Positions 20,241 to 36,528 of a stretch of DNA of 40,575 bases are shown here, in pieces (positions within the stretch are counted from its first letter, which is position 1; each line of letters starts with the position of its first letter). Source of the DNA: Oscillospiraceae bacterium. GTDB taxonomy: Bacteria; Bacillota; Clostridia; UMGS1810. The stretch is taken from assembly GCA_015068985.1 (NCBI GenBank), contig SVJL01000010.1, positions 1 to 40,575 of the forward strand, written 5' to 3'. The notes below the pieces were generated by a model that was given only the letters and a program-made list of their open reading frames with translations, did no database searches and was not told the DNA's origin. The translations under genes were made by a program, and so were the position numbers.

Positions 20241-20277
20241 CACTTATTTTCCTTCTTTCTTTAAGATTATTTGGTTT

Positions 20278-20357
20278 TAAATTAATCACCGAAAGGGTGA
20301 AAAATGATTATGTTATGTTATTAAAACTTTAATTTCACCATTTTGGTGATTAATTTA
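20278..20357. repeat. 25-bp inverted repeat between PP2C and FHA genes
   Basis: 20278-20302 and 20333-20357 are complementary at 23 of 25 positions, with a 30-bp AT-rich centre. It resembles a small MITE or a terminator-like stem. The rest of the 20241-20536 gap, apart from the copy at 20477, shows no gene or clear promoter. Confidence 0.65.
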
Positions 20358-20476
20358 CATATTACAGAGTTTTTGCAATTTTTACGAACTGTATGAGATG
20401 TGTGCAATAGAAATTTTGATAAACAAAAATTAAATCAATAAACACACAATAATACGAATACGGAAATATTCCGATA

Positions 20477-20504
20477 GTGGGCGGATGAGGGCATCCGCCC
20501 CTAC
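20477..20504. repeat. Palindromic dispersed repeat, copy B (GTAGGGGCGGATG family)
   Basis: Reads GTGGGCGGATGAGGGCATCC then GCCCCTAC. Its complement, GTAGGGGCGGATGCCCTCAT and onward, matches the left arm at 13022 with only a few changes, in opposite orientation. The neighbouring CGGAAATATTCCG (20461-20473) is a perfect palindrome. Confidence 0.65.
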
Positions 20505-20536
20505 GAAATATATAACCAATGGTGTTAAATCAATGA

Positions 20537-21187
20537 TTATTCTGCTTTTTTGTCATCTTTGCCATAAGATTCCCAACTGAAGGATTTGTTGCAAAGAGTG
20601 CGCAGAATGAGTTTTGTTGAACCAAGCTCAATTACGTCATAATCTTTAAGTTCAATAGGACTCATAACAGGATTTCCGTTAACATAAATGTTGCTGCGGG
20701 CATCGCCACCGTAGATATAGAACTTATTGTTTTTAGCGTCATAGTTAACTATTGCAGCAACACCTCTGGAAAGCTTGTCGTCAAAATCGAGTTTGATGTC
20801 ATTTTTTTCGCCTCTGCCAACGGTGTTTTTGTCGCTATAGAGCTTATAGTCGCCGCCGCTATTTTTGCCTTCAACACACACAAGCCAACCTCTCACAGGC
20901 TTATTTCCGCTTGGTGTTGCATCAAGATAAACAGTGATTGCGTGTTCGCCCTCTATGGGTTTTGTTTTGGGAAAATCAACATTTGCATCGGTTACAGGCG
21001 GATTGGGGTTAACATAGCCGTCGTTACCACCAAGAGGCAAGGTTGAGGGAAAATCGTTTGAAGAGCCGTCGAAGCTCTGACCAAGAGGTACAGTTGCATT
21101 AGCAACGCCAACTCCATTACAGAATGGGCAATTTGCACTTTTTTCATCATCATACATATGTCCGTTGGGGCACTGTTGTATAGCCAT
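20537..21187 (-). CDS. Zinc-ribbon FHA-domain protein
   Basis: 216 aa, cytosolic. It starts with a treble-clef-like zinc site (CPNGHMYDDEKSANCPFC) and ends with an FHA domain (about 118-205), the phosphothreonine reader. FHA landmarks are TVGRGEKNDIKLD, LSRGVAAIV and YVNGNPV. The usual His of the SRxH core is not present (SRGVA), so binding specificity may be altered. A middle part (ITVYLDATPSGNKPVRGWLVC) resembles a small beta unit. Good AAGAAGGA ribosome binding site. A likely effector or adaptor for the kinases upstream. Confidence 0.88.
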   Translation of the reverse strand: MAIQQCPNGHMYDDEKSANCPFCNGVGVANATVPLGQSFDGSSNDFPSTLPLGGNDGYVNPNPPVTDANVDFPKTKPIEGEHAITVYLDATPSGNKPVRGWLVCVEGKNSGGDYKLYSDKNTVGRGEKNDIKLDFDDKLSRGVAAIVNYDAKNNKFYIYGGDARSNIYVNGNPVMSPIELKDYDVIELGSTKLILRTLCNKSFSWESYGKDDKKAE

Positions 21188-21222
21188 AATTTTTTCCTTC
21201 TTTCTATATTTTTTATAAAGTA

Positions 21223-21933
21223 TTATTGATTTGCAGGAGGTTGTGAACCCTGAGGAGGTTGACTGCCCATAGGGGGCTGACCGCCCATAGGAGGCTGACC
21301 GCCCTGAGGCATCTGACCGCCCGGTGGCGGCGGTGGCATTCCGGGACCACCCATGCCAACATTGATTTCTACAATCTGCATACCGGCATTGTAGGTAACG
21401 TAGGTGTTTTTCATATAAAGAGCAAGGTCTCTTGCGTAGATATATGTTTTTTCGCCATTAACAAAGGGGGCTGTTGTGATGGCAATGGTTGTTTTGGTGC
21501 CTGCCGTCTGATCATCGGCAATAACGATTGTGTCGTCTACGTTGAGGGTGTAGATTTCGGTTGGAGCCATAATCTTTATGGTGCCATCATCTATTACGCA
21601 ATCGTAGCCAACAGCTTTTGCAAAATCATCAACAGGAAGGTAGGTTCTGCCATTTTCCAGAATAACGTCGAAGGTTATCTGTTGACCGTTGAGCATAACA
21701 CTTCCCGGCTCCGCATTATACATTGGCGGTGGCGGAGGCATCATTGAACCATTGTCTCCTTTTTTGATCAGAACAACAAGAGTTGTGACTAAGGCTACAA
21801 TAACAACAGCTATAACAGAAACGATAACTATTTGCCAGCTTGAGGTTTTGCGAACGGGCCCATATTCCGACATTGGATACTGAGAGTCGGGATAGGCCGA
21901 TGGTGGATAGTTATTGTTTGATTTATTATTCAT
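21223..21933 (-). CDS. Membrane protein with copper-amine-oxidase-N-type domain and Pro/Gly/Gln-rich tail
   Basis: 236 aa. A short cytosolic N-terminus (SNNNYPPSAYPDSQYPMSEYG), a membrane helix (IVIVSVIAVVIVALVTTLVVLI), then outside a PPPPP spacer and a copper-amine-oxidase-N-like domain (VMLNGQQITFDVILENGRTYLPVDDFAKAVG...). The tail repeats GGQPPMGGQPPMGSQPPQ. MPPPPP-type runs also occur in the kinase at 26569 and the CotH protein. Probably a surface-exposed binding module; ligand unknown. AGGAGGAAG ribosome binding site; it starts 11 nt after the RDD-FHA gene. Confidence 0.83.
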   Translation of the reverse strand: MNNKSNNNYPPSAYPDSQYPMSEYGPVRKTSSWQIVIVSVIAVVIVALVTTLVVLIKKGDNGSMMPPPPPMYNAEPGSVMLNGQQITFDVILENGRTYLPVDDFAKAVGYDCVIDDGTIKIMAPTEIYTLNVDDTIVIADDQTAGTKTTIAITTAPFVNGEKTYIYARDLALYMKNTYVTYNAGMQIVEINVGMGGPGMPPPPPGGQMPQGGQPPMGGQPPMGSQPPQGSQPPANQ

Positions 21934-21944
21934 TATTCTTCCTC

Positions 21945-22733
21945 CTATCTTACTTCAAAAGAATTCTGGGGTGTTGCCAGATAGAAGCGGTCGCCGCTCT
22001 TTAGTGCAATTGGCTGCCCCTTAGGCACACGCTTTCCGTTTGCAAGAAAGGTGCCATGAGTTGAGTTGCGGTCGCTGAGAACAAACATTCCCGACATGGG
22101 GTTATATGTTATGAGACAGTGACAACGACTCACCTTAGCTTGAGACTCGGGCACAACAATATTGCATCGGAGTCCATCCCTTCCTATGGTGAGTCCGGAC
22201 TGGGGGATGGGATAGACTGTGCCGGCAAGAGGACCGGTTATGCCAATGAGCTGACTATTGGATGCAAAAGCACCTTTTGATACACGTTTTTGACGTGCAA
22301 AACCACCGGAGTGCGGGCGAGCTTCTTCTGCCAGACCGCTGACAACATAGGTTTTGGCAATCATATCGTGAAGGCACTGTTTTTCGTTGTTAAAAAGTGC
22401 CATAAGATAGCCTATGCACAATATGAGACCGGAAACATATTTTGAAAGATATCTCAAAATAGCGGTTGCATAGCTGATACCCTCTCCGGTTTCGCCTGCA
22501 ACATACAGCTCCATAACTCGTTTGCCCACTGTTGCGTGCATTGAGCCGCCCTCCATTGCTACATAATACACAATTTCGGTTAAAAGCACCAAAGGTATGC
22601 CAACAGCAAAAAATCCGAAGCTTAAGCCGCCAAGTGCAAATGTGAGCCATGCAATGACTGCGTCTATCAAAGAAATTATTATCAAGTCAATTATACGGGC
22701 AAGAACTCTTTTGCCCAAATCTCCATAATTCAT
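21945..22733 (-). CDS. RDD membrane domain fused to FHA domain
   Basis: 262 aa. The N-terminal RDD domain (about 1-130; KRVLARIIDLIIISLIDAV and GKRVMELYV) places three or so helices in the membrane. The C-terminal FHA domain (about 172-262) has intact readers: LTIGRDGLRCNIV, VSRCHCLI and DRNSTHGTFLANG. It would recruit threonine-phosphorylated partners to the membrane. The kinase just upstream also ends in an RDD domain, so the two may assemble through RDD-RDD contacts (inference). Start ATG with GAGGT 9 nt upstream. Confidence 0.92.
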   Translation of the reverse strand: MNYGDLGKRVLARIIDLIIISLIDAVIAWLTFALGGLSFGFFAVGIPLVLLTEIVYYVAMEGGSMHATVGKRVMELYVAGETGEGISYATAILRYLSKYVSGLILCIGYLMALFNNEKQCLHDMIAKTYVVSGLAEEARPHSGGFARQKRVSKGAFASNSQLIGITGPLAGTVYPIPQSGLTIGRDGLRCNIVVPESQAKVSRCHCLITYNPMSGMFVLSDRNSTHGTFLANGKRVPKGQPIALKSGDRFYLATPQNSFEVR

Positions 22734-22796
22734 CGTGTGTTACCTCATTCCTTTAGCCAAAAGTTGCCGAAGCTATGCCTTTTTAGCATATTCGGA

Positions 22797-24371
22797 TTAC
22801 TCTCTTTCGACTATACATACCATACTATCTGTTTTATCTTCAAGCAATTTGCCTTCGTCACCAAACACATACACAAAAATCCCCAGAAGCTTTATTATGT
22901 TGCGAATAATGATTTCGCCGGGTTCAACCTCATAATAAACTCTGCCGCAAACCCGAAGTCCTAAAAGAGCTTTGCCCACAGTTTGGGAGCTTATGAACTC
23001 AAGTGCGATGTTTGCTACAGTGAACACAACCGGAAACATTGTTGCAAATCCTATAAACACAGAATCGAATTCGCCAATTGACAAATACAGTATTGTGAAA
23101 TATATCACACCCCACACCAGCAAATCGATAACATAGGCACTTGCTCTTGCATAAATTGAAGCCGAAAGCCTACCATATTGACGCTGACCTGAAGTGATTA
23201 CCTTTTTGGGTTTTGGACTCTCTGCAACAGATGCCGGTTTTTGCACCACAGCCTGAGCAGTTTTTGCTATTTCTGCCACGGATTGCTTAGCCTTTACCGG
23301 AGTTACAGATTTAACCTTAACCTCAACATTAGGGCGATTATTCTGCTTATGTGTTGTTGGTGACCAATTTATTTTTTGAGCCTGAATCCGTTGAGAAGCC
23401 GAGTCTGCCTTAGTTGGCCAAAGAATTGACCTCATCTGGGCAATGCTTGCCGGTCGTGCCGATGCCGAAAGAGCCATACACTGCTCTACACAATATTGGA
23501 GATTGTGAGGCAGATCCGGTCTGAGAGACGAAAACGGCACGAGACCGTCGTCTACAACACGTTCGGTAGATTCGAGCGGAACCTTTTGCGTCATTAAATG
23601 ATAAAAGGTTGCGGCAAGACCGTAGATGTCGGTGTAGGGGCCTTGCTTGCCTCGTCCTCCATATTGCTCGAGGGGAGCATATCCAACCTTAAGGATTACG
23701 GAAAGTTCGCGGTTTTGCTGCTCCATTTCGCTTCGGGCAGAGCCAAAATCGAGAATTTTAACATTATTATTGTTTGTGACGTATATATTATCGGGAGCTA
23801 TGTCGCGGTGGAAAATGCCCTGTGAATGAATGTATTCGAGTCCGTTCATAACCTGACAGAGAAGATTTATTCCCTCTTCATAGCTAACACGACGGCTAAA
23901 ATTGTTGGAATAACAACGAAGGTTAACGCCGTTACAATATTCCATCACATAATAGGCAGTGTTGTTGGCATAGAAGCTGTCGTAGGTGGATATGATGTTG
24001 GGATGATTCAGTCTTCTGAGAAGATCTGCTTCGCTTACAAAACGCTGTTTGAAACGATTGTAGCGAGGAAGATTATCGGAATCAACCATCACAGCCGGAC
24101 TTGGGGCAGTTCGTAATGCAATAGCGGCAGGAAAAAATTCCTTTATTGCACACACACCGCCAAGTGACATATCGAGGCATTTGTAGGTTACGCCAAAGCC
24201 GCCTGCTCCAAGCTCCTCTCCCACTATGTAGCGATTGCAAAGAATGGTACCGGGGAGAAGATGCCTGGAAGGCGATGAGTTTGGAGTGTATATGTATCCG
24301 CATTTGGGACACGGTTTTTCTGCTACGGGCTTTTCGGAAAAGCAATGGTAGCAGAGATTGTTAATGTTCAC
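22797..24371 (-). CDS. Zinc-ribbon Hanks-type Ser/Thr kinase with C-terminal RDD membrane domain
   Basis: 524 aa. The zinc ribbon uses C7, C10, C21 and C24. The kinase domain (about 42-310) has glycine loop GAGGFGVTY, Lys77 in AIKEFF, catalytic HRDIAPDN (Asp190), LDFGSAR (Asp208) and APLEQYGGRGKQGPYTDIYG, so it should be active. A basic linker (about 315-400) leads to an RDD membrane domain (ARASAYVIDLLVWGVIYF ... GKALLGLRV). The topology differs from the other three kinases, which have one helix and an outer tail. The start is GTG with GGAG 8 nt upstream. Confidence 0.94.
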   Translation of the reverse strand: MNINNLCYHCFSEKPVAEKPCPKCGYIYTPNSSPSRHLLPGTILCNRYIVGEELGAGGFGVTYKCLDMSLGGVCAIKEFFPAAIALRTAPSPAVMVDSDNLPRYNRFKQRFVSEADLLRRLNHPNIISTYDSFYANNTAYYVMEYCNGVNLRCYSNNFSRRVSYEEGINLLCQVMNGLEYIHSQGIFHRDIAPDNIYVTNNNNVKILDFGSARSEMEQQNRELSVILKVGYAPLEQYGGRGKQGPYTDIYGLAATFYHLMTQKVPLESTERVVDDGLVPFSSLRPDLPHNLQYCVEQCMALSASARPASIAQMRSILWPTKADSASQRIQAQKINWSPTTHKQNNRPNVEVKVKSVTPVKAKQSVAEIAKTAQAVVQKPASVAESPKPKKVITSGQRQYGRLSASIYARASAYVIDLLVWGVIYFTILYLSIGEFDSVFIGFATMFPVVFTVANIALEFISSQTVGKALLGLRVCGRVYYEVEPGEIIIRNIIKLLGIFVYVFGDEGKLLEDKTDSMVCIVERE

Positions 24372-24392
24372 TCATATCACTCCAGACGAAAA

Positions 24393-25550
24393 TTAGAATC
24401 TGACTTCAAATGTGTTTTCGGGAATTGCAAGATAGAACTTGTCGCCGCTATTCAGCAGTTTAGGAACATTTGGAGCAAGCTTTTTACCATCGGAGGTGAA
24501 GGTGCCATAGCTCGAACCGAGGTCTTTAACATAGCACACGGAACCATCGAAAGAGATTTCGCAGTGTTCTCCGCTTACACCCTGAGTGTTAACAGGATAA
24601 GCGATGCCGCAAACACTTGAATTTCTGCCTATTTTTATTATTCCGTTAACTTCGTATCTTTTGCCGTTCATTGTGCCTCCGATTGCAACTACTCTGGCTG
24701 TGCGAGAATGTTGTTCGGTTTTTGGGAAATTATCGATAGGAGGCTGAGGGGGTAATTCTTCAGGAACAACTCTGTTTCGGCGAACAATAAGAACGATAAC
24801 AAGAGCAATTATGGCAACAAGCAAAACGCCGCCGGCAACAAGGAGCCAGTTAACATCGCCGTGAAGTGTTACGGGGATTTTGTCTTCGTCTATAACTGCA
24901 AGAAGCTCATCTATGGCAATTGCATAGTTATCCTGATTGAGACCAAAGGTGTTGATGCCCACAACTTCACCCTTAGAGTTAACAAGAGGACCGCCTGAGT
25001 TACCGTGGGTGATTGTGAGGTCGAGCATATAAACATCAAGACCGATTATTCTGTCGGCTTTTTTGATGCCACCTTTGGTTACGGTGATGTCGTCGGTGTT
25101 GAATTTTGGCCAATCGGTAGCCTGATTGCTGGGGTAGCCGAGAGCTGCAAAATCGTCATCGGGGTCAACATCTTCCATAGGGCAAAGAACCATTGCCTGA
25201 CGTTTTTCGGTGGGCTGAGGGAGACGGAGCACTGCAACGTCTCTGTTGGCATCATAGAAATATACGTTTGCAAGCATCATTTCGTTTGATGCAAGGTCGA
25301 ACGCAACTGTGGCTGTTGTGTTAACTTCGCCTTTTACAACGTGGTTGTTGGTTACAATGTATTCAACAGGCTTACCAACCTTACCAATGGCAAAGCCGGT
25401 GCCGTAGGAACCATCCTGACTGATAACTGCAACAACACTGCTTTTTGCCTCGGTTGCCGAGCCTGCCGATGCGGTAACTGCCAAGAATGAAAACATTATT
25501 GCAATTACTGCCAGAAGGCTGACGATTCTTTTTGTTTTTGTGATTTTCAT
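24393..25550 (-). CDS. Trypsin-like serine protease with transmembrane helix and cytosolic FHA domain
   Basis: 385 aa. A signal peptide (about 1-29, ending FLAVTASAG) precedes an HtrA-type protease domain with a complete triad: His70 in VTNNHVV, Asp104 in NRDVAVL, Ser185 in HGNSGGPLV. No PDZ domain. A membrane helix at about 233-257 is followed by a cytosolic linker and an FHA domain (about 287-385; IKIGRNSSVCG, VSGEHCEISF, DLGSSYGTF). The phosphothreonine reader is thus inside and the protease outside, so inner phosphorylation might control outer proteolysis, or cleavage might signal inward. Ribosome binding site AAAGGAA. Confidence 0.93.
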   Translation of the reverse strand: MKITKTKRIVSLLAVIAIMFSFLAVTASAGSATEAKSSVVAVISQDGSYGTGFAIGKVGKPVEYIVTNNHVVKGEVNTTATVAFDLASNEMMLANVYFYDANRDVAVLRLPQPTEKRQAMVLCPMEDVDPDDDFAALGYPSNQATDWPKFNTDDITVTKGGIKKADRIIGLDVYMLDLTITHGNSGGPLVNSKGEVVGINTFGLNQDNYAIAIDELLAVIDEDKIPVTLHGDVNWLLVAGGVLLVAIIALVIVLIVRRNRVVPEELPPQPPIDNFPKTEQHSRTARVVAIGGTMNGKRYEVNGIIKIGRNSSVCGIAYPVNTQGVSGEHCEISFDGSVCYVKDLGSSYGTFTSDGKKLAPNVPKLLNSGDKFYLAIPENTFEVRF

Positions 25551-25581
25551 TTACTAACATTCCTTTCAAATTAAAATGTTT

Positions 25582-26484
25582 TTACTTTTGTTTTTCACAC
25601 TTTATGACCATTATGGTCATATTGTCCTGACCCGGGTGCGCCATAGCCGCTATTTGAGATATTATTGTATCGCTGGCAGTTTGAGCATCGTAGGAAAGGA
25701 TAATGTCTTTTATGGAATCTTCCGACATTGCATTATACACACCATCGGAGCACAGCACGAACACATCGCCGGGTTGGATTTTGTAGCCTTTATAACCGAT
25801 GTCGGTAAGCGGGAGACCATCTTTTCCCATAAAGCTCACAAGACTGTCTTTTTGAGGATTCTCTTCAATCTCGCGGATACTTCCGCCAACTTCCAGATAT
25901 TCGCGGAAAAGCTGGTTTTTGTAGTCGTGGTCTTCGTTTAGCTGAAACATCTTTCTGTTTCGGATACAATATAGTCTGCTGTCGCCGGCGGTGAGCCAAT
26001 AGATACGGTTTTTGAATATATATGCCATAACAACCGTTGCTCCTGCCTTGCTCATACCGTCTGTTGACGCATATTTATCGCAAATGCTCTTGTTTACATA
26101 CAGAGCAATGTTTTGAAGCTGATTTGCGATGTTAAGCTGAGGATTTATGGCTCCAAAAGACGCAATTGAATTCTGAACGGTAAAGTCGGCAACAAATTTG
26201 CCGTCGGACAAACCGCCCATTCCGTCAGAAAGAACTGCGAGAAGTCCTTTTTCGGAAACAATTTTGCTATCAATCAGATTGGAGTAGCCAAAAGAATCTT
26301 CCTGATAAGGACGTGCACCCTGATGCTGCCCGTTGCCGGTGTTAACATACATCGACACTGCCGGAGTGAGCTTAAGCTCAACGCCCGTGTTTTTGGCTTG
26401 AGTTAGAGCAGCCTGTGCTGCGTGTTTTGCGGGAACTTTATTTCGAACGGTATGTACTTTTGTTTTTTTCTTGTCTGATCGCAT
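25582..26484 (-). CDS. PP2C-family Ser/Thr phosphatase 2
   Basis: 300 aa, soluble. All PP2C landmarks are present: RPYQEDSFG, LSDGMGGLSDG, AGATVVMAY, TAGDSRLYCI, LCSDGVYNAM and DNMTIMVIK. It has a basic 50-residue N-terminal extension (SDKKKTKVHTVRNKVPAKHA) absent from phosphatase 1. The ATG at 26484 follows AGAGGTG with 6-nt spacing; an earlier in-frame start at 26526 lacks one. It sits between kinase and protease-FHA genes, the usual eraser for such pairs. Confidence 0.94.
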   Translation of the reverse strand: MRSDKKKTKVHTVRNKVPAKHAAQAALTQAKNTGVELKLTPAVSMYVNTGNGQHQGARPYQEDSFGYSNLIDSKIVSEKGLLAVLSDGMGGLSDGKFVADFTVQNSIASFGAINPQLNIANQLQNIALYVNKSICDKYASTDGMSKAGATVVMAYIFKNRIYWLTAGDSRLYCIRNRKMFQLNEDHDYKNQLFREYLEVGGSIREIEENPQKDSLVSFMGKDGLPLTDIGYKGYKIQPGDVFVLCSDGVYNAMSEDSIKDIILSYDAQTASDTIISQIAAMAHPGQDNMTIMVIKCEKQK

Positions 26485-26568
26485 TTGTATCACCTCTTTC
26501 TGCATATAGCGTTTTTTGTATGTCAAGTTATTGGTGGCAAAATTGCCAGTTCACAGTAACAATTACTG

Positions 26569-27948
26569 TCATGCAGGGGGAGCACCGCCGGGCATTCCCG
26601 GTGGTGGCATTCCACCCGGTGGCGGCATCATTTCGCCATTTGGCGGAAACGGTGGTTGTTGCCCCGGGGTGAGAAGTGTTACCAAAATAACTATGATGAG
26701 TGCCACAATAATCAGTGCACACACTCCTATTATTATGCCTTTGAGCATTGCAGACTTTGCTTCTTTTTCGGCTTGCATACGCTCATAATATGACATGGGA
26801 TATTCGTATGAGCTGTGGGTGTAAGGTCCGCCTGAGGGTGGATAGGATTGATGCGAATTGTTAGCGGAATTATATGAATTTGGAATTTCACCAAATTTCA
26901 CATCACTTCCATGCAATTCCTGCCTGATGCCGGAATATATTGGTTGAACATATTCATCACCGCCAACGCTGACGCTTCCGGTGTTTATGTCGTTTATGTC
27001 GGCAAGCAGCTCGATTGCACTCTGATAACGGTCTTCAACTCTTGGCTGCATACACTTCTCTATGATGTTAATAAAATTTTGTGAAATGCCAAGCTCAGGG
27101 TCAAAATCAATTTGAGGATTTTCAAAACGTGTCATTGCATCGGGGGGAACTTTACCGGTCAGAGAATAGTAGGCTGACGCACCAACAGCATAAATGTCGG
27201 TCCAGACGCCTTGCTTACCCGAGCTTTTGTATTGTTCCAGAGGTGCAAAACCCTGTTTGACAACAACAGAATAGGTTTGCTGAGAATTGCCAAGAACCTG
27301 CTTTGCTGCACCAAAGTCGATGAGCTTAACATCACCATTGGTGCATATGAAAATGTTATCGGGAGAAATGTCGCGATGGAGGGTCTGGGTGCTATGAACA
27401 GTTACAAGTGCATCGCAGATTCCCTTCATTATTGCGACTGCTTCGGGTTCCGACAGGCGGTGCCCTTTTTTGGAAACATATCCTTTAAGGTCGATGCCTT
27501 TAAGATACTCCATAGAATAGTACACTGTGTTGTTGGAATAGAAAAATTCATAGACCGAAACAACATTTTTGTTGGAATTGAATTTTGATATGGTTTTTGC
27601 TTCATCAAAAAATCTTCTGGCACCTTTTTCAAACACATTTCTTTTGTCGTCGGAAATTATGGTTATCTCTTCTTCGCCTTTGGCTCTTGTTGCAATACCG
27701 GTGGGATAATATTCCTTAATTGCCACAACTGAATTTTTCTCGCTCGAATAAGCAAGGTAGGTTGCTCCAAAGCCACCTCTGCCAAGCACTCTTCCGATTA
27801 TGTATTTGCCGAGGATGTTGGTTCCGGGCATCAGAAGTCCAACTTCGGCGTGGTAGGTTTCGTGCGTTAAGCCACAATTTGAACAGACTGTACCGGGGGT
27901 GACAGGTTCAAAGCAAAAGTCGCACAAATCTACTCCTTTATAATGCAT
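26569..27948 (-). CDS. Zinc-ribbon Hanks-type Ser/Thr kinase, Pro/Gly/Met-rich outer tail
   Basis: 459 aa. Zinc ribbon C9/C12/C22/C25, kinase domain about 45-315 with GRGGFGATY, Lys78, HRDISPDN (Asp193), DFGAAK (Asp211) and APLEQYKSSGKQG, all intact. After a linker, a membrane helix (MLKGIIIGVCALIIVALIIVILV, about 398-425) leads to a short outside tail of PPPGGMPPPGMPGG type. Ribosome binding site GGAGGAGAT. One of three tandem paralogues with identical spacing of zinc, Lys, HRD and DFG residues, differing mainly after the kinase domain. Confidence 0.95.
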   Translation of the reverse strand: MHYKGVDLCDFCFEPVTPGTVCSNCGLTHETYHAEVGLLMPGTNILGKYIIGRVLGRGGFGATYLAYSSEKNSVVAIKEYYPTGIATRAKGEEEITIISDDKRNVFEKGARRFFDEAKTISKFNSNKNVVSVYEFFYSNNTVYYSMEYLKGIDLKGYVSKKGHRLSEPEAVAIMKGICDALVTVHSTQTLHRDISPDNIFICTNGDVKLIDFGAAKQVLGNSQQTYSVVVKQGFAPLEQYKSSGKQGVWTDIYAVGASAYYSLTGKVPPDAMTRFENPQIDFDPELGISQNFINIIEKCMQPRVEDRYQSAIELLADINDINTGSVSVGGDEYVQPIYSGIRQELHGSDVKFGEIPNSYNSANNSHQSYPPSGGPYTHSSYEYPMSYYERMQAEKEAKSAMLKGIIIGVCALIIVALIIVILVTLLTPGQQPPFPPNGEMMPPPGGMPPPGMPGGAPPA

Positions 27949-28030
27949 TGTATCTCCTCCTTCGGGCTTATTGTTGTTATAATAAGGTTATTCAGTTTCT
28001 GATTCTATGCGGATCAAGCACTATAGTTGG

Positions 28031-29779
28031 TTACTGAATAGTGTTTAAGCCACCCGGCACCTGATCCGGACGTACATATGGCGGCATACCATTTCCGGCT
28101 GTGCCAACATCCGGAGAAGAACCGGCTGTTGAATTTGTGTCTGGAACTCTTACAGCGTCCGGATTAATCACTTCACGTTCCTGCGGAGAATCACTTAAAG
28201 CAGGAGCAAGCCATGACGGCACCTCTTCCATAGACTTTGTGCTGCTATCTGAGGAACCACCGGTTGAGTCGCTGTTAGTTGCGGAATTGCTGTTGCTTGA
28301 TTGGCTGGTGGATGCAGGAGTCTCTTGTTTAGGAGTTGTTTTGGGGTTAGGAGTTGTTTTGGGTTTAGCAGGTGATTTTTTCTCGGTTGCCTCGACTTTT
28401 TTCTGAGCTGCCTGATTTGCCTGTTCACTTTCAGGGCTCTGAGCTTCACTATCGTCGCCGGAAATCTGGGCTTCAACGCTTGAACCCACATCACGAATGA
28501 GACTTATTGTTGGTTCAAGCAAGTCGGCATCTGAAGTCACAGAAGCGGCATCAGAACTCGGCGGAGTATCGACCAAATCATCCGAACTTCCCCCACCAAA
28601 AGCCAAGGCTACAATCAACCCACCCAAAACTAAAAGAACTGCCGCAATTATTATGGTGTTTTTGCGGTTTGCAACGCCCTTTGAATTGGATGAATCGCCA
28701 AAGGTTTTGGGTTCATCATATTGCTGCGATGGTGTTTCTTCAATTGATTGTTCAAAATTTTCACTATTATCATCAAGTTCGCTTTCGTTAGTCAACAAAT
28801 CTTCTTCATCAACTTCCAATTTATCAAGATCGGAAAGGAGCTCTATAACACTTTGATAACGGTCACCGATGCGGTATGCCATACATTTTTGTATTATGCC
28901 GGCAAGGTCAGGCGAAAGCGAAACGTCTGCATCGAATTTCATCTCGGGATTGTCAACACGGTCAATAGCATCGGGCGGGATTTTGCCGAGAAGTGCATAA
29001 TACATGGTTGCTCCAAGTGCATAAATATCGGTCCATACGCCTTGCTTGCCGTTGCGTGTGTATTGCTCAACAGGGGCAAAGCCTTGCTTGAGCACAACCG
29101 AATAGCCTTGTGTTTCTTCCGAAACCATCTGTTTTGCTGCTCCAAAGTCAATTAGCTTAACATCGCCGTTTGAACAAATAAAGATATTGTCGGGAGATAT
29201 GTCGCGATGCAGAGTTTGGGTGCTATGAATTGAAATGAGTGCGTTACATATCTCTCTTACAATTTTCAACACCTTACTTTGGTTAAGCTTACCACCGTTT
29301 AAGCTAACATATTTTTTGAGGTCCATACCGTCAAGATATTCCATAGAATAATACACGGTGCCGTTGGCATAGAAAAATTCATATACGGAAACAACATTTT
29401 TGTTGTTTCTAAATTTCGAAATAGTTTTTGCCTCTTCAAAGAAACTTTTTGCACCCCTTTCAAAAAGGTCTCTTTTTTCTTCCGAAACAATGGCAACAGT
29501 TTCTTCCCCTGTGCTTCTGTAGGAAATGCTGACAGGAAGATATTCCTTAACTGCAACCGCTTTTGCATGGTCGTTGGAATAGGCTATGTAGGTGGCACCA
29601 AAACCTCCTCTGCCAAGTGCTCTTCCGATTATGTATTTACCCATCAGGTTAGCTCCGGGCTTAAGCAATCCGGGAGAGGGCTTGTAGGTTTCGTGCGACA
29701 AACCGCACTTATGACACTTGCTTCCATCCTTTATGGGTTCAAAGCAAAAGTCACACATATTTAATGATCCAAGCTTCAT
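28031..29779 (-). CDS. Zinc-ribbon Hanks-type Ser/Thr kinase, Ser/Thr/Pro-rich outer tail
   Basis: 582 aa from the ATG at 29779, chosen for AAGGAG 9 nt upstream; a start at 29821 would overlap the previous gene. Zinc ribbon C9/C12/C22/C25; kinase with GRGGFGATY, Lys78, HRDISPDN (Asp193) and DFGAAKQ (Asp211). A single helix (TIIIAAVLLVLGGLIVALAF, about 375-397) is followed by an outside region of about 185 residues rich in Ser, Thr, Pro and Lys (KSPAKPKTTPNPKTTPKQ; SQSSNSNSATNSDS) with no recognised fold, perhaps a wall-spanning stalk. Confidence 0.94.
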   Translation of the reverse strand: MKLGSLNMCDFCFEPIKDGSKCHKCGLSHETYKPSPGLLKPGANLMGKYIIGRALGRGGFGATYIAYSNDHAKAVAVKEYLPVSISYRSTGEETVAIVSEEKRDLFERGAKSFFEEAKTISKFRNNKNVVSVYEFFYANGTVYYSMEYLDGMDLKKYVSLNGGKLNQSKVLKIVREICNALISIHSTQTLHRDISPDNIFICSNGDVKLIDFGAAKQMVSEETQGYSVVLKQGFAPVEQYTRNGKQGVWTDIYALGATMYYALLGKIPPDAIDRVDNPEMKFDADVSLSPDLAGIIQKCMAYRIGDRYQSVIELLSDLDKLEVDEEDLLTNESELDDNSENFEQSIEETPSQQYDEPKTFGDSSNSKGVANRKNTIIIAAVLLVLGGLIVALAFGGGSSDDLVDTPPSSDAASVTSDADLLEPTISLIRDVGSSVEAQISGDDSEAQSPESEQANQAAQKKVEATEKKSPAKPKTTPNPKTTPKQETPASTSQSSNSNSATNSDSTGGSSDSSTKSMEEVPSWLAPALSDSPQEREVINPDAVRVPDTNSTAGSSPDVGTAGNGMPPYVRPDQVPGGLNTIQ

Positions 29780-29813
29780 TTGTGCAATCTCCTTAGTGTT
29801 TTTATTGGCAAAA

Positions 29814-31916
29814 TCATTCAAATTGGGTGCTGATTATGTAGTTTACAATTTCTCCGATAACTCTGTCACGGAAATCTCCGCCCTCCGATTTTGTTTTGCC
29901 TTCCTGAGTGTAGGCAAGAATCGATACAATTATCTGTGTGTTGCCATCTTCTATCAGTGCAACATTGTTGGTTGACTGTGAGTTGATGGCGTTTGCATTA
30001 TAAACACTGTAGTTACCTTCAACAACTTTTTTGAGACCTATAGCTTTTCCGTCATTAGACACCGAGCCGAAAATGCTTTTCATATAATTTTCGCTACCGT
30101 AACCACTGTTGAAAATCAGATTTTCAAATATGCCTGCAATGTCGCGAGCGGATGTTTTGTTTGGTTCTGCAGTTTCGTCTATATATGCCGAGTTAGTATA
30201 GGTTTTGCGGTTAACCCTGGTATTGGCATAGCCTTTAGCAGTTAGCATACTGTTTATTACGTCAAAGCCGCTATAGGCCTCCCTGATGTAGGCAATATAG
30301 TCTATAAGCTGGTTAGACTTATTATTATCGCCATATATTGCAACATCTTCAACATATTCTCTTATGGTAAGATATTGACCCGACTGGTTCTCACTACCGG
30401 GTGCTTCTTTGCCATTCATAATATAGTCAAAACGCATGGTATATTCGTCAATATTGATTCCGTTGGTTGACACAATCTGCGACAGGGTGTCGAGAATAAC
30501 CACCTGGCTCATTGCGGATGCAGGATAAGTGTAGTTCTCGTTGTAACCATATGTATAGCCTGTATCAAGATTTGTGACAGAAATTCCAAAATCAGTGTAG
30601 TTACAGTTATTGTATATGATATTCTCTATGACTTCACTGTCTATTTCATATTCATTCTCAAGCGGTGGGTCGAGCAATGTAATACTATCACTAAAGACTG
30701 TTTGACCACCATCGGTAATTACTCTAGATCCTCCGCCCGAATTTTGCGAATCCACCAAAGAAACAACACCAATAAAAGCCATACAAACAGTAAGCAAGGC
30801 AATGGCTGAGACTATGCCAAGTGTGACCCTGTCTTTGGGAAGAAAAGACAATATCTTGTCATACCATTTCTTTTTCGGATTGGGTTTCGGATCGGGTTTC
30901 GGATCGGGTTTCGGATCGGGTTTTGGATCGGGTTTTGGAACGGGTTTTGATTTTGCCCCATATTTTAAAGCAGTGAGCAAATCATCCACCCTCAGATATC
31001 TGTCGGATGCGTGATAACTCATACAAGTTGCAACTATAGATTTTAACTTGTTCGATATATTACCATACGAATCGAAGTCTACACCCGATTCAAAAATAGA
31101 TGCCGCATCAGGCGGAATTTTACCCGTCAGTGCATAATACATTGTTGCACCAAGAGAGTATATGTCGGTCCACGGGCCTTGCTCTCCATTGGTCATATAT
31201 TGTTCAGGCGGAGCAAAGCCCTGCTTCACAACAATTGAATAGTTTCGATTTTCTTCATTCATGATCTGTCTGGCTGAGCCAAAGTCGATGAGTTTAACAT
31301 TGCCATCAGAACAAATGTAGATATTGTCGGGAGTCAGGTCTCTGTGCAGAGTATCCTGATTGTGAACAACCTTTAACGCCTCACACACCTCGATAGCAAT
31401 TTTGGTTACTTCATCTCCACCCAATCTACCGCCTTTTTGCATAATATATTTTTTTAAGTCGCTTCCTTTAAGATATTCCATTGCAAAATATGCCGTGTTG
31501 TTTGCATAGAAAAACTGATAAATAGAAACAATATTTTTATTTGAACCGAATCCATAGATGGTTTGTGCTTCGCGATAAAACCTTTTTGCACCTTTATCAA
31601 ACACTTCTCTTTTATCTTCTGAAACAATTGAAACCGCTTCTTCGCCTTTGCCTCTGTATGTGATGTTTACCGGAAGATATTCTTTTAATGCAACAATTCC
31701 ATCATACTCACTTGAATATGCAAGATAAGTTGCACCAAAGCCGCCTCTGCCAAGAACCATGCCGATAATATACAAGCCCAATATGTTTGTGCCCGGGGCA
31801 AGCAAGCCAACAGGCAGATTGTAGGTTTCGTGAGTGAGGCCACAGTTTGGGCACTTTCCACCGGGCTGTATTGGTTCAAAACAAAAATCACACAAGTTTT
31901 TGCCTTTGAAAAACAT
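29814..31916 (-). CDS. Zinc-ribbon Hanks-type Ser/Thr kinase with extracellular beta-lactamase-fold domain
   Basis: 700 aa. Zinc ribbon C9/C12/C22/C25; kinase with GRGGFGATY, Lys78, HRDLTPDN (Asp193), DFGSAR (Asp211) and APPEQY. A DPKP repeat linker (about 322-345), then a membrane helix (about 360-385). The outer domain (about 420-700) looks like class A beta-lactamase/serine hydrolase: GISVTNLDTGYTYGYN, YPASAMSQVVIL at the active-site position, YGDNNKSNQLID at the SDN position. The SxxK lysine is absent (S467-A-M-S470, then Gln), so it is probably a ligand-binding pseudo-enzyme, perhaps sensing cell-wall fragments or beta-lactams. Ribosome binding site GGGGGAG. Confidence 0.9.
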   Translation of the reverse strand: MFFKGKNLCDFCFEPIQPGGKCPNCGLTHETYNLPVGLLAPGTNILGLYIIGMVLGRGGFGATYLAYSSEYDGIVALKEYLPVNITYRGKGEEAVSIVSEDKREVFDKGAKRFYREAQTIYGFGSNKNIVSIYQFFYANNTAYFAMEYLKGSDLKKYIMQKGGRLGGDEVTKIAIEVCEALKVVHNQDTLHRDLTPDNIYICSDGNVKLIDFGSARQIMNEENRNYSIVVKQGFAPPEQYMTNGEQGPWTDIYSLGATMYYALTGKIPPDAASIFESGVDFDSYGNISNKLKSIVATCMSYHASDRYLRVDDLLTALKYGAKSKPVPKPDPKPDPKPDPKPDPKPNPKKKWYDKILSFLPKDRVTLGIVSAIALLTVCMAFIGVVSLVDSQNSGGGSRVITDGGQTVFSDSITLLDPPLENEYEIDSEVIENIIYNNCNYTDFGISVTNLDTGYTYGYNENYTYPASAMSQVVILDTLSQIVSTNGINIDEYTMRFDYIMNGKEAPGSENQSGQYLTIREYVEDVAIYGDNNKSNQLIDYIAYIREAYSGFDVINSMLTAKGYANTRVNRKTYTNSAYIDETAEPNKTSARDIAGIFENLIFNSGYGSENYMKSIFGSVSNDGKAIGLKKVVEGNYSVYNANAINSQSTNNVALIEDGNTQIIVSILAYTQEGKTKSEGGDFRDRVIGEIVNYIISTQFE
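30877..30950. repeat. 12-bp coding tandem repeats (DPKP)
   Basis: About six near-identical units of GGATCGGGTTTC on the plus strand encode the Pro-Lys-Pro-Asp linker before the membrane helix of the beta-lactamase-fold kinase. Several units are identical, so recent expansion by slippage is likely. Confidence 0.8.
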
Positions 31917-31958
31917 TATTAACTCCCCCTTTTATCTATTCGTATATGGTATCAAAAA

Positions 31959-32657
31959 TTAGTCTTCAAAATTAAATCCGCATTCTGAACAAATATTGGA
32001 TGTAACCATCATTCGGGCACCACATTTGATGCAGTAGTTTCTATAGGCTTTCTGCATTCCGAGATATTTGGTTACTTTTATTTGTCCCGAAGATGTTGTG
32101 CTTTTTCCGCCGGTGTTTGTGTACACAGTTCCAATTGTATGCGTGGTTATGTATTGACATCCCATACCGGCAAGCGCCATAGGAATCCATAAAACAACCA
32201 TAACAGCAACATCTTGGTTGAAAGGAATAGCAAATATGGTATATGCCGATAAGAGAATGATGCCGGCTCCGGACACAGCGGTTACAACAAACGAAGTGAC
32301 CTTTGGACAGAAAAATGATAAAACACCAAACGGAATTCCGGCAAGGACTGCAAAACAGATGTTGTTAAATAACACATACATTGTTGTTGCTGCCATAAAA
32401 GCTACAACAACACAAGTGGCTATTTTTCTTTGCATAATTGCCAAAGCTGCAAGAGCCGATCCAAGCAAAAGAGCGAAGATGATGCCCACAATAACGTGCC
32501 CTATGCCGACTCCTGCCAAAAAGCCAAGTGATAAGCCGCCAAAAAAAGACCAGACAATAACCATGGGTTTCATTAATTTAAGACCTGCAAAGCATTCGAT
32601 GCCTCCCAAAACAAGAGAGATGCAAGCAAGTATCCGGACAATGTTCCCGACAGTCAT
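31959..32657 (-). CDS. Polytopic membrane protein with C-terminal zinc ribbon
   Basis: 232 aa with about six to seven hydrophobic helices over residues 8-178 (for example VIVWSFFGGLSLGFLAGVGIG and ATCVVVAFMAATTMYVLF). A cytosolic tail ends in a zinc ribbon (CIKCGARM...ICSECGFNFED). The helix pattern resembles TMEM198/DUF4203-like proteins, but I do not assign it firmly. It lies 43 nt upstream of the first kinase with a GGAGGG ribosome binding site. The zinc ribbon matches a shared theme of this block. Confidence 0.8.
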   Translation of the reverse strand: MTVGNIVRILACISLVLGGIECFAGLKLMKPMVIVWSFFGGLSLGFLAGVGIGHVIVGIIFALLLGSALAALAIMQRKIATCVVVAFMAATTMYVLFNNICFAVLAGIPFGVLSFFCPKVTSFVVTAVSGAGIILLSAYTIFAIPFNQDVAVMVVLWIPMALAGMGCQYITTHTIGTVYTNTGGKSTTSSGQIKVTKYLGMQKAYRNYCIKCGARMMVTSNICSECGFNFED

Positions 32658-32675
32658 TTTTTGCCCTCCAAACTT

Positions 32676-33239
32676 TTATAAAAGTTTTGTGCCGCAACGT
32701 GCACAATAAATTGCATCGTGACGGTTATGATATGTGCATGAGCACTTTTTATAATTGACCGGAATTGGTTCCAATCCGGCCGGGCAGGTCACCTTAAGCT
32801 TTCGGTTTGGTTGTTCTTCATCGGACGTTTCGGGCATCGAAGCTTCGAGGTTGAAATCAATTGCTTTATCAACAAAAGTATCTGCTTCGATAGACTCATC
32901 CATCATCCTGCCATTTATGTTCATTATTGTGTCACACAAAATTAACACATCACGATTAACCAGTTTTTTATCGTTATACAAATTGTAGCATATGCATCCA
33001 AGCTCAGTTAGCATTTTATCCAGTTCCGTTTCCTGCAATTTCAAATAATCTTTGCTTATGTTGTCATTACCTCTGAGAACGGAGAGAAAATTTAAAGATT
33101 TTTTTATTTGTGTCACAATATCGGTCATTTCAGAAAAAACCATAACGCCGTCTTCGCATAAACTGTAGCACAGACTACCCAATGTTTTTAGATTACCGTC
33201 TCTTATGGTTTTAAGATTGTCGGGTTTATTGTTTTCCAA
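32676..33239 (-). CDS. Helical cytosolic protein with C-terminal zinc ribbon, unknown function
   Basis: 187 aa, not recognised. Residues 1-120 look alpha-helical and carry two similar segments (TLGSLCYSLCEDGVMVFSEM and ELGCICYNLYNDKKLVNRDV), suggesting an internal duplication. The C-terminus has a zinc ribbon (CSCTYHNRHDAIYCARCG). The start is TTG with AGGAG 10 nt upstream; no better start was found. Followed after 18 nt by the membrane zinc-ribbon gene, so likely in the same transcript. Confidence 0.72.
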   Translation of the reverse strand: MENNKPDNLKTIRDGNLKTLGSLCYSLCEDGVMVFSEMTDIVTQIKKSLNFLSVLRGNDNISKDYLKLQETELDKMLTELGCICYNLYNDKKLVNRDVLILCDTIMNINGRMMDESIEADTFVDKAIDFNLEASMPETSDEEQPNRKLKVTCPAGLEPIPVNYKKCSCTYHNRHDAIYCARCGTKLL

Positions 33240-33261
33240 GGGTAATCATCTCCTGTCTATT

Positions 33262-35130
33262 TTAATAATTGCGTTTAAAAAGGAACACAGCAACAAACGC
33301 AATGCACAATATTATTAGTGAAACCAATATGGTTATAACACTATTGGAGTTGCCTTGGGGTGTATGAGGCATACCCGGCGGAGGCGGCATCATATGACCG
33401 CTGTTTTCACCGGGTGGCATTATACCGTGACTGCCTGCCATATCGGGCGGTTGGTTTCCACCGGGGCCACCGGGCTCACCCATTGAACCCATGTCGTTTA
33501 TAGAAAAATCTGCTGTTATTAACGTGGATGAAATCTGAGATTGAGTTTTGGATGCTATTGTGCCGTTTAGCTGTCCGTCTATGCTTTTGCACCTGAGTGC
33601 TATAAATTTTTTCAAAACATTGAATGCATTAAGCTGCTCCTGAGGAGTGTAGAACGAAACAGTTTCTTTTGATACATATGGATAAATCTCGTTTTCTAAC
33701 ATTTCCAGCTTGTTGATAAATTCGCCGGAGGCATACATTATCAAATCGGAAAGATAGCTGTGATATTTTTGCATATATTCCTCTTTTCCGAGGAGTACCG
33801 AAACGAGCGGTCTTGATTCCATATCGACTCCGATGGTGGGCGTATCAATAGCGTGATTTATCACCTCGGTTGTCTCATTTTGAGAAGATCCTTTCGTTTT
33901 TTTGTTGTCAAAGACAAAATCGCCCTGATTTTGAACATCGGGCTGGCCTTTGTCATTTTTCATATGTGGTGGTTCTACGCCGGGGCCTCCGCCGAATGTA
34001 CCAAAAGACAAATTATAATCCCAAGGCAGAACCGTTATTTTTCCATTTATTTCTGCAAGGTAGTAATTTTGCTTCATATTACCGGTGTAGCTGTCTCCAT
34101 TTACCATAAAGGTGTGAACTGCGAGATATCGGAGAATTGAATCCACATCCCAATATTTTTCGAGTTCTTCTTTTGAAACACCGGTCTTGTTAAGATATTT
34201 TATTGCTTTTATAACCTTTGCATAATCCTTTGCATCTGTGTGCTTTGAAACTGCATTTGCAAAAATGGTTTTGTAACTATCGGTTGAGTCATCAACATAC
34301 ACCAAGTCACCGCCACCACCTTCACCTCCCCCGGGTGCAGGCGGCATTCCATGACCACCAGCCAAACCTTGCGGCGGAGGCGGCATTCCCTGACCATTAC
34401 CGTCTCCCGGAGGTGGTGGCATTACACCCCCCGCAGATGGCTTTTCCATTCCTTTTGATTGTATAACCGAGCCGTTTTCAACATCAACAATGGCGTTTTC
34501 AAACTCATCAAATCCCGAGCTTTTTACATTATAAAGTTTTATGTTTGTGTTGTTGTACACTCTGGATAAATAGTCTTCATCATACACCTCTACAGCAAGA
34601 TACAATCCAAAAGGTTCTCCGTTTAACGTAAGAAAAGCGTATGTGTGAAGAGGAGCATTAACACCCTCGTAAGACATAAGATCGTAGGCGATATAATCTT
34701 TCATATAGGTTGCATCTGCCTGCAGATTATTAAGAACCATCTGTTCCAAGCCATAACAGGTTTGATTGCTTACGTAATGATCAAAATCAAGACGATAGCC
34801 GATTCTTTCTCCTTGAATACTCGTGAGGCTTGAATTTCCCTTTGGTCTTAATCCAACATTTGAAAACTCTGCCCCGTCTATTTTTAGATTGCACGAAATG
34901 TATGGCTTAGACATTTTGTTGTTGAGCATATCATCCCAAGAGGTTTCGTCAACCAAGATTTCTATATTAACAACGCTTTTGCCAAAAAATTTTACAGCAT
35001 ATTCCCCTGTTGATGTGTTGACGGAATCAAAGTTAAAAAAGCCTGATAAAAACGTCAGAGTCAAAGAAAAAATCAATGCAACCGCAACAAGCAACAATAT
35101 TCTTTTTTCGAATCTTCTTGAACCCAACAT
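33262..35130 (-). CDS. CotH-family (kinase-like) membrane protein
   Basis: 622 aa. N-terminal membrane anchor (ILLLVAVALIFSLTLTFLSGFF), then a CotH domain outside: GLRPKGNSSLTS, YRLDFDHYV, LNNLQADATYMKDYIAYDLM, LNGEPFGLYLAVEVYDEDYL, NGDSYTGNMKQNYYL and PWDYNLSFG (metal-binding DYN). A low-complexity insert (about 240-285; MPPPPGDGNGQGMPPPPQG) interrupts the domain. A Pro/Gly/Met tail and a C-terminal helix (VITILVSLIILCIAFVAVFLF) follow, so both ends are anchored. Spore-coat CotH is a protein kinase; activity here is unproven. The ATG at 35130 follows GGAG by 6 nt. It neighbours DUF4956 and VTC genes, a known association. Confidence 0.9.
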   Translation of the reverse strand: MLGSRRFEKRILLLVAVALIFSLTLTFLSGFFNFDSVNTSTGEYAVKFFGKSVVNIEILVDETSWDDMLNNKMSKPYISCNLKIDGAEFSNVGLRPKGNSSLTSIQGERIGYRLDFDHYVSNQTCYGLEQMVLNNLQADATYMKDYIAYDLMSYEGVNAPLHTYAFLTLNGEPFGLYLAVEVYDEDYLSRVYNNTNIKLYNVKSSGFDEFENAIVDVENGSVIQSKGMEKPSAGGVMPPPPGDGNGQGMPPPPQGLAGGHGMPPAPGGGEGGGGDLVYVDDSTDSYKTIFANAVSKHTDAKDYAKVIKAIKYLNKTGVSKEELEKYWDVDSILRYLAVHTFMVNGDSYTGNMKQNYYLAEINGKITVLPWDYNLSFGTFGGGPGVEPPHMKNDKGQPDVQNQGDFVFDNKKTKGSSQNETTEVINHAIDTPTIGVDMESRPLVSVLLGKEEYMQKYHSYLSDLIMYASGEFINKLEMLENEIYPYVSKETVSFYTPQEQLNAFNVLKKFIALRCKSIDGQLNGTIASKTQSQISSTLITADFSINDMGSMGEPGGPGGNQPPDMAGSHGIMPPGENSGHMMPPPPGMPHTPQGNSNSVITILVSLIILCIAFVAVFLFKRNY

Positions 35131-35142
35131 ACCAGTCTCCAA

Positions 35143-35823
35143 TTATGACATATACTCTCCGTTGTAGCTTACCAGGGTTGCATTTCCAACCCCGTTTATT
35201 TCCATCAATTTATTTATTGCATAACCCTCTCTGTCTTTGAGTCTTACCTCATAGGTTAACTCCAAACCCTGCCCGGTTACGCTTTTTGATTTGAGCAGAT
35301 ATTTTTGACAATTATGTTTTATAACAGAATTAACCTCACATTCTGCCTTATAAGAGCAGCTTACAACAAGAATATATGGTACAACCCCCACCGTTCTGAT
35401 GTTAGCAAAAATTAAAATTATTATGCCTATAATAACAGAACCGATAACCGCAAGCGGAATAAGACCTGCACCAAGAACTATACCGGCAGCTATAGCCCAA
35501 AACAAAAAGGCAATATCCATGGGCTCTTTTATTGCTGTGCGGAATCTGACAATTGAGAGTGCACCAACCATACCCAAAGAAAGCACAATATTAGCTGTGA
35601 CAGCAAGAATAACCAATGTTGTTATCATTGCCATTGAAATCAGAGACACGCCAAAAGACGCCGAATACATAACACCCTTGTAGGTTTTTTTGTATATAAG
35701 ATAAATATACAACCCTAAAACAAACGCAAGAGCAAGTGCCAAAAGTGTGTCAAGCACTGAAAATGAGTTCAAATTGGTTGAACTTAAAAATTCTGATTTG
35801 AAAATGTCGGTGAAATTGGTCAT
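35143..35823 (-). CDS. DUF4956 family membrane protein
   Basis: 226 aa with about four helices in residues 22-145 (LLALALAFVLGLYIYLIY, SFGVSLISMAMITTLVILAV, a central stretch, and AVIGSVIIGIIILIFANI). The hallmark GMVGALSIVRFRTAIKEPMDIAFLFWAIA motif is present; a cytosolic C-terminal domain of about 80 residues follows. Usually found next to VTC-domain and CotH genes, as here; molecular role unknown. AAGGAGAATT ribosome binding site. Confidence 0.92.
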   Translation of the reverse strand: MTNFTDIFKSEFLSSTNLNSFSVLDTLLALALAFVLGLYIYLIYKKTYKGVMYSASFGVSLISMAMITTLVILAVTANIVLSLGMVGALSIVRFRTAIKEPMDIAFLFWAIAAGIVLGAGLIPLAVIGSVIIGIIILIFANIRTVGVVPYILVVSCSYKAECEVNSVIKHNCQKYLLKSKSVTGQGLELTYEVRLKDREGYAINKLMEINGVGNATLVSYNGEYMS

Positions 35824-35853
35824 TTGTAATTCTCCTTGATATTGTATTTTGTA

Positions 35854-36528
35854 TTAAAAAGCAGAAAATCTTGTTGCCGCATATTTGGAAAAACTGCTTG
35901 ATTTAACATTGCTGAGCTGAACCGCGTCCCTGATTATCTGCGGTAAAAACTCATCCCACTTTACCTCCACAATGCTTTTGGAAAACAGCTTTAAACCTAT
36001 ATGGTCATTATCTAAAAACCTGTCAACATTACTGCTTCCTCTAATATCGGAATCAATTGTTACCCTAACATTGCCCGGAGCATATATATAAGCTTCTCTG
36101 GTGTATGTAACAATATTTTTAGGACGTAAAAGCTGATATTGCATTTTTGTCCAAAGTTCCCTTATAAGCTCTTCACGGGAATCTTTCATCCACGAAAAGT
36201 CCTGATTCAAAATTCTCTGAACCTGATCCATAGTTAACATACAGCTTCTTTTTAAGCATAAACCATTGATCTTACTCTTTTTTTCAAGTCTTATAAAACC
36301 TGTGTCGTTATTGTAATATCTTATTCTGAACTTTTCTCTTTTTTCATATCCGGCAATTTTTTCGAGCATAGCCTTATCGTAGCAATTGTCGAAATACAAA
36401 CTCTTAACAACATAAAGACCTGCACTGTCGGCGTGATAATCGCATTTTGCTATAAGCTTCAATCGTTGTCGTAAGCCTATGAGGTCAAACTCTGTTACGT
36501 GATGTTTTATTTCGTTTCTGAATTTCAT
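35854..36528 (-). CDS. VTC-domain polyphosphate polymerase-like protein
   Basis: 224 aa forming a single VTC (triphosphate-tunnel-type) domain. Tunnel motifs: RNEIKHHV, VKSLYFD, KFRIRYYN, FIRLEKKSK, VRVTIDSDI and IVEVKWDEFLP, with the expected basic and acidic residues intact. The yeast Vtc4 domain makes polyphosphate from ATP; bacterial members are assigned by homology. First gene of the long minus-strand block, with a GGAGATATTAA ribosome binding site and a consensus promoter about 80 bp upstream. Confidence 0.92.
   Translation of the reverse strand: MKFRNEIKHHVTEFDLIGLRQRLKLIAKCDYHADSAGLYVVKSLYFDNCYDKAMLEKIAGYEKREKFRIRYYNNDTGFIRLEKKSKINGLCLKRSCMLTMDQVQRILNQDFSWMKDSREELIRELWTKMQYQLLRPKNIVTYTREAYIYAPGNVRVTIDSDIRGSSNVDRFLDNDHIGLKLFSKSIVEVKWDEFLPQIIRDAVQLSNVKSSSFSKYAATRFSAF

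Follow-up and report, generated by a model that had tools for sequence, protein, structure and literature searches.

A Hanks-type receptor kinase from an Oscillospiraceae bacterium carries an apparently dead class A beta-lactamase-fold ectodomain

One gene in the window, the 40,575-nucleotide stretch of Oscillospiraceae DNA analysed here, joins a Hanks-type kinase to a predicted extracellular domain that has the class A beta-lactamase fold and has lost its catalytic residues. The strongest clue to its function lies outside the window, in the pairing of this clade of dead domains with intact PBP-A-like genes. With moderate confidence, the dead ectodomain of this receptor kinase is taken here to be the member without catalytic activity in a dead/active pair, where it would contact its partner or the same stem peptide and thereby signal the state of the cell wall.

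The ORF is intact, with an ATG start and 700 codons, and its features are listed in Table 1. In the kinase alignment, the glycine-rich loop, the VALK lysine, the alphaC glutamate, and the HRD, DFG, and APE-like motifs are all found, and the zinc ribbon and kinase on the cytoplasmic side look competent. Basic residues flank the kinase side of the single transmembrane (TM) helix, which places the kinase inside and the lactamase-fold domain outside; this receptor topology, with one TM helix between kinase and ectodomain, is a prediction from hydropathy. A sequence-only reading of the same DNA had proposed a receptor-type Hanks kinase, and the strong kinase match, the intact catalytic motifs, and the single TM helix bear this out. 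Two other accounts of the gene were set aside. A misbinned contig is ruled out, as the dnaE of the contig is 67-70% identical to full-length same-genus copies and at most 57% identical to other full-length hits. As for an anti-phage defence kinase, PADLOC matches span the kinase domain of all four tested kinases alike and are uninformative on the ectodomain.

Table 1. Coordinates of the receptor kinase gene, its domains and altered motifs, and neighbouring genes in the window
Feature	Position	Strand	Basis or remark
Whole gene: Zn ribbon, Hanks kinase, linker, TM helix, degenerate class A beta-lactamase-fold ectodomain	29814..31916	(-)	700 aa
Zinc-ribbon-like CxxC...CxxC, residues 9-25	31842..31892	(-)	Sequence; four Cys invariant in kinase alignment
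Hanks-type Ser/Thr kinase domain, residues 51-307	30996..31766	(-)	Pfam PF00069 2.4e-37 and motifs
Lys/Pro (KPDP)n juxtamembrane linker, about residues 324-350	30867..30947	(-)	Sequence
Single transmembrane helix, residues 367-385	30762..30818	(-)	Hydropathy
Ectodomain, class A beta-lactamase/PBP-A fold, residues 431-700	29817..30626	(-)	Pfam, model, Foldseek, VIA-align
SxxK equivalent A468-M-S-Q471, neither nucleophile nor lysine retained	30504..30515	(-)	Alignment with intact homologues
SDN equivalent G529-D-N531	30324..30332	(-)	Alignment
KTG equivalent A641-N642-A643; subfamily usually N-H-N-A	29988..29996	(-)	Alignment
Tandem paralogous kinase, other extracellular tail, 59% identical over kinase region	28031..29821	(-)	Overlaps the 29814-31916 gene by 8 bp
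Tandem paralogous kinase, short Pro-rich tail	26569..27948	(-)	Orthologue (67%) in G263
PP2C-type phosphatase, same cluster	25582..26526	(-)	DGMGG/GDSR/SDG/DN motifs present
Trypsin-like protease with FHA domain, same cluster	24393..25550	(-)	Domain search

Several lines of evidence concern the fold of the ectodomain. The Pfam family Beta-lactamase2 (PF13354) matches residues 444-667 at 3e-14, with 53.3 bits against a cut-off of 22 bits; the NCBIfam model bla_class_A stays far below its own cut-off (22.9 versus 200 bits). A structure model of residues 431-700, computed from a five-sequence alignment, reached a pLDDT of 82 and a pTM of 0.87. Every one of the top 50 Foldseek matches listed against the PDB is either PBP-A or a class A beta-lactamase, with a best E of 1.6e-13, and VIA-align superposed the model on LRA-5 with a Z of 27.3 (2.2 A over 238 residues) and on PBP-A with a Z of 26.8. 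The predicted structure thus confirms a true class A beta-lactamase-type fold, as the sequence-only reading had supposed. Structure prediction and superposition on class A beta-lactamases, which that reading had suggested as a check, gave this same fold, and since Foldseek and VIA-align both point to class A enzymes and PBP-A, the possibility of another fold falls away.

All three catalytic motifs are altered in alignment with intact homologues. The earlier description had recorded the loss of the SxxK lysine (in PASAMSQ) and the presence of a GDN box. The lysine is indeed gone (Q471), but the account was incomplete, with the serine (A468) and the KTG motif (ANA) gone as well; the GDN box is present at residues 529-531, but itself departs from SDN, Ser130 having become Gly. 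The serine of PASAMSQ lies one residue before the Ambler-70 position, and because the ungapped register with intact homologues puts A468 at the Ser position, the nucleophile has been lost together with the lysine. Throughout an eight-member dead subfamily, Ala occupies the nucleophile position and Ser the one before it, without exception. Judged by its motifs, the ectodomain would be a catalytically dead pseudo-enzyme, a proposal of the sequence-only reading that these alignments support. The motif positions are the best conserved of the subfamily: the 22 motif columns contain ten of its 21 invariant columns (hypergeometric p 8e-7). The pocket is thus conserved in an altered form and not merely decaying. 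The window copy retains the conserved pocket residues of the subfamily; it also keeps the omega-loop Asn and the Asp-Asn of GDN.

The relatives of this domain occur in gene pairs. Nine loci (L013, L014, L015, L017, L023, L024, L025, L055, and L058) were found through the dead domain, and in every one of them the next gene encodes an intact domain; given this route of discovery, the search itself did not create the adjacency. Five further loci found through the intact gene (L018, L020, L021, L027, and L028) have the same order, with the dead gene first. In each of the 14 pairs measured, both genes lie on the same strand, the dead gene being directly upstream, with a gap of -41 to +38 bp. The remaining loci fetched for a class A-fold domain hold a single copy each. 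A maximum-likelihood tree of 43 domains places 15 dead receptor domains on one side of a branch with 97/89 support and 28 others, chiefly intact, on the opposite side, the rows labelled intact including some altered ones (Clostridium stand-alone proteins with Gly at position 70, and L029, which lacks SxxK and KTG). The window domain falls on the dead side, where it groups with L025 (100/100), its nearest relative at 41-42% identity, but it has no adjacent partner. The distance matrices of dead and intact domains over the 14 pairs are correlated (Mantel r 0.83, 0/20000 permutations), and they remain so with one member per pair type (r 0.80, 3/20000 permutations). Dead and intact partners therefore co-diverge, which the shared inheritance of linked genes can partly account for.

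The dead domains are carried by zinc-ribbon membrane proteins, by pseudokinases, and, in another class, by Hanks kinases. In three same-genus genomes, the carrier is a pseudokinase with a Big domain, whose Pfam kinase match is only 1.1e-3, whose HRD and DFG motifs are replaced, and which hhalign relates to kinases at 9e-7. The gene next to each pseudokinase encodes a PP2C-like protein, followed by a TM helix and then an intact SxxK/SDN/KTG domain. This PP2C-like part was recognised by hhalign (8e-8) and by Foldseek to PP2C phosphatases (3e-10), and lacks the DGMGG and SDG motifs. In these pseudokinase/pseudophosphatase pairs (L013:5111-9111, L014:2946-6349, and L015:4056-8179), both signalling enzymes appear inactive by motif. 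In G010, G125, G084, and G092, a zinc-ribbon membrane protein bears the dead domain, and its gene immediately precedes that of an intact domain; a second, more divergent dead type, with AWGFYLP replacing SxxK, has the same arrangement in G003, G004, G005, G009, G115, and G182. At the AWGFYLP-type loci (L018, L019, L020, L021, L027, and L028), zinc-ribbon membrane proteins lie upstream of an intact domain that is lipoprotein-like or TM-anchored. Searches within the orders of G092 (6 genomes) and G125 (9 genomes) added no members, and the ectodomain query against genome contigs brought up nothing but Clostridium-type proteins, stand-alone and about 259 aa long. Such class A-fold proteins, represented by L001-L008, have Gly at the Ser70 position and keep Lys73, SDN, and KTG. 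A different context is seen at L026:4948-9387, where a 1480-residue ORF contains a degenerate lactamase-fold stretch and the neighbours resemble, by eye, a conjugation apparatus.

The Hanks kinases of the other class come from G470, obtained by a phylum search, and from G878, obtained by a follow-up within the class of G470. Both proteins share with the window protein the layout of zinc ribbon, Hanks kinase, TM helix, and dead domain, and their ectodomains are 72% identical to each other. Their dead domains belong to another branch, with S70 changed to Gly, K73 to Tyr, and KTG to QTG, and with SDN kept. Each kinase gene overlaps that of an intact partner, whereas the window kinase has no such partner gene. 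As in the window cluster, the neighbours in G470 include PP2C, RDD-FHA, FHA, and trypsin-FHA genes. These kinase/intact-partner loci are L055:7214-15517, which also has a VWA gene alongside, and L058:2696-5906.

Fifteen intact partners show little or no variation in SxxK, SDN, and KTG, and the omega-loop glutamate is not conserved among them. PBP-A is a DD-carboxypeptidase/endopeptidase, and the absence of the class A catalytic omega-loop glutamate is its key difference from class A beta-lactamases (PMC11189452). It is also the top PDB sequence match of the intact domain from the genome of the window (E 9e-10). Given the motifs kept without a conserved glutamate, this best PDB match, and the activity of PBP-A, the intact partners probably work as peptidoglycan enzymes and not as lactamases.

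The kinase gene lies in a long same-strand run (window positions 19512-36528) with VTC, DUF4956, CotH, and zinc-ribbon proteins, four kinases, two PP2C, trypsin-FHA, RDD-FHA, and FHA. This cluster (VTC, DUF4956, CotH, zinc-ribbon proteins, kinase, PP2C, trypsin-FHA, and kinase-RDD) is largely syntenic in G263 (L035), a genome of another family, at 41-79% identity. The dead-domain kinase is absent from the G263 cluster, where other genes occupy its place. Because the cluster is otherwise conserved there, the window gene looks like a tandem kinase copy that acquired an ectodomain. None of about 44 other relatives of the window kinase within the class carries the same ectodomain, and the fusion is thus rare in this lineage and could be a recent chimera. 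No intact partner gene adjoins the window kinase within the window. The genome itself, in an assembly that is 83% complete, has one signalling-linked intact domain, carried by a PP2C-like pseudophosphatase at G000:C27 that is unlinked and has no pseudokinase neighbour. In the tree, this intact domain groups with the pseudokinase-type pair and not with the L025-type pair whence the window domain comes. The two orphans might work together, or the partner may have been lost or be missing from the assembly.

Three known systems offer comparisons. With the PASTA-domain Hanks kinases (PrkC/StkP/PknB), the window protein has in common a single-pass Ser/Thr kinase, a cytoplasmic kinase, and an extracellular C-terminal module of a wall-linked kind; it differs in having an N-terminal zinc ribbon and a whole dead class A-fold domain in place of any PASTA repeat. 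An ordinary PASTA kinase is ruled out by the lack of a Pfam PASTA match, the NCBIfam PASTA-kinase model covering the kinase part only, at 134 bits against a cut-off of 450. With BlaR1 and MecR1, it shares the principle of a receptor in the membrane whose extracellular domain belongs to the penicillin-recognising superfamily. BlaR1 is described as sensing through acylation of its sensor domain and signalling through a metalloprotease (PMC9834060), whereas the window protein has a kinase as effector and lacks the acylatable serine and lysine. The sequence-only reading had likened the design in principle to both systems, while noting that it combines a kinase with a pseudo-enzyme. That combination is indeed distinct from both, but the BlaR1 parallel is weak because the serine to be acylated is absent. 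PBP-A of Thermosynechococcus and the class A beta-lactamases have the fold in common with the window domain, which lacks SxxK, Ser130, and KTG and is membrane-tethered to a kinase. Within its own dead-domain clade, the zinc-ribbon, TM, and dead-domain receptors of L017, L023, L024, L025, and others have an adjacent intact partner and no kinase, and the window protein is the reverse. No prior description of such a kinase or pair was found in open-access full text, an absence that is weak evidence.

On the reading judged most probable, the gene encodes a single-pass receptor kinase whose outside domain derives from an old clade of dead domains. The usual partner of that clade is a membrane-anchored, active-site-intact PBP-A-like enzyme, encoded one gene downstream and evolving together with it. 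Through its retained but altered pocket, the dead domain would contact its active DD-peptidase-like partner or share with it a peptidoglycan stem peptide, and how the dead/active pair is occupied, or what state it is in, would be relayed across the membrane to the kinase. The kinase would then signal within the cluster of PP2C and FHA proteins.

In the class A enzyme fold, the serine and lysine of SxxK, like the lysine of KTG, hold ligands. Their loss from the window domain weighs against a lone sensor, the view taken by the sequence-only reading, in which a muropeptide stem or a beta-lactam bound non-covalently in the dead pocket would switch the kinase with no partner enzyme. Such a sensor would fit with the conservation of the pocket positions in altered form and with the missing adjacent partner, and PASTA kinases, described as muropeptide-responsive, would be a precedent (PMC5786024). 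However, all the other signalling-type relatives were found with an adjacent, co-diverging intact partner, and a sensor acting alone is held to be unlikely, if still a serious contender. Because the clade is otherwise paired with a co-diverging intact gene, a lone penicillin or muropeptide sensor is no longer the simplest reading, and the dead/active pair is.

Two further explanations dispense with sensing by a pair altogether. The gene could be a recent chimera, in which a tandem-duplicated kinase acquired a surplus dead domain that once belonged to a zinc-ribbon gene and that is no more than a wall-side anchor, and the syntenic G263 cluster without the dead-domain kinase, the closest ectodomain relative being a zinc-ribbon protein (L025) and not a kinase, and the intact partner missing beside the gene are all consistent with this. 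Yet the reading frame, TM helix, and fold of the window protein are intact, its pocket residues are conserved, and G470 and G878 keep the same architecture with ectodomains of 72% identity, so that a chimera without a sensing role seems improbable. Least credible by far is a hydrolase working through other residues. In its favour are the preserved fold and the retention of both the omega-loop Asn and the Asp-Asn of GDN. Against it, the domain has substitutions at the nucleophile, the lysine, Ser130, and the KTG lysine, and all eight members of the subfamily carry Ala at the nucleophile position.

Extended to its relatives, the dead/active pair leads to a more tentative proposal, which we hold with rather less conviction. 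It may represent an undescribed class of wall receptors, in which co-evolving dead and active PBP-A-like ectodomains are mounted on Hanks kinases, pseudokinases, PP2C-like pseudophosphatases, or zinc-ribbon proteins, and the non-catalytic subunit reports to a kinase the working state of its catalytic twin. This bears on the means, other than PASTA domains, by which bacterial receptor kinases monitor the wall, and it offers a design in which a pseudo-enzyme subunit would couple a wall enzyme to phospho-signalling. If true, inactive class A-fold domains would be a standing class of signalling parts, which annotation pipelines may mislabel as lactamases.
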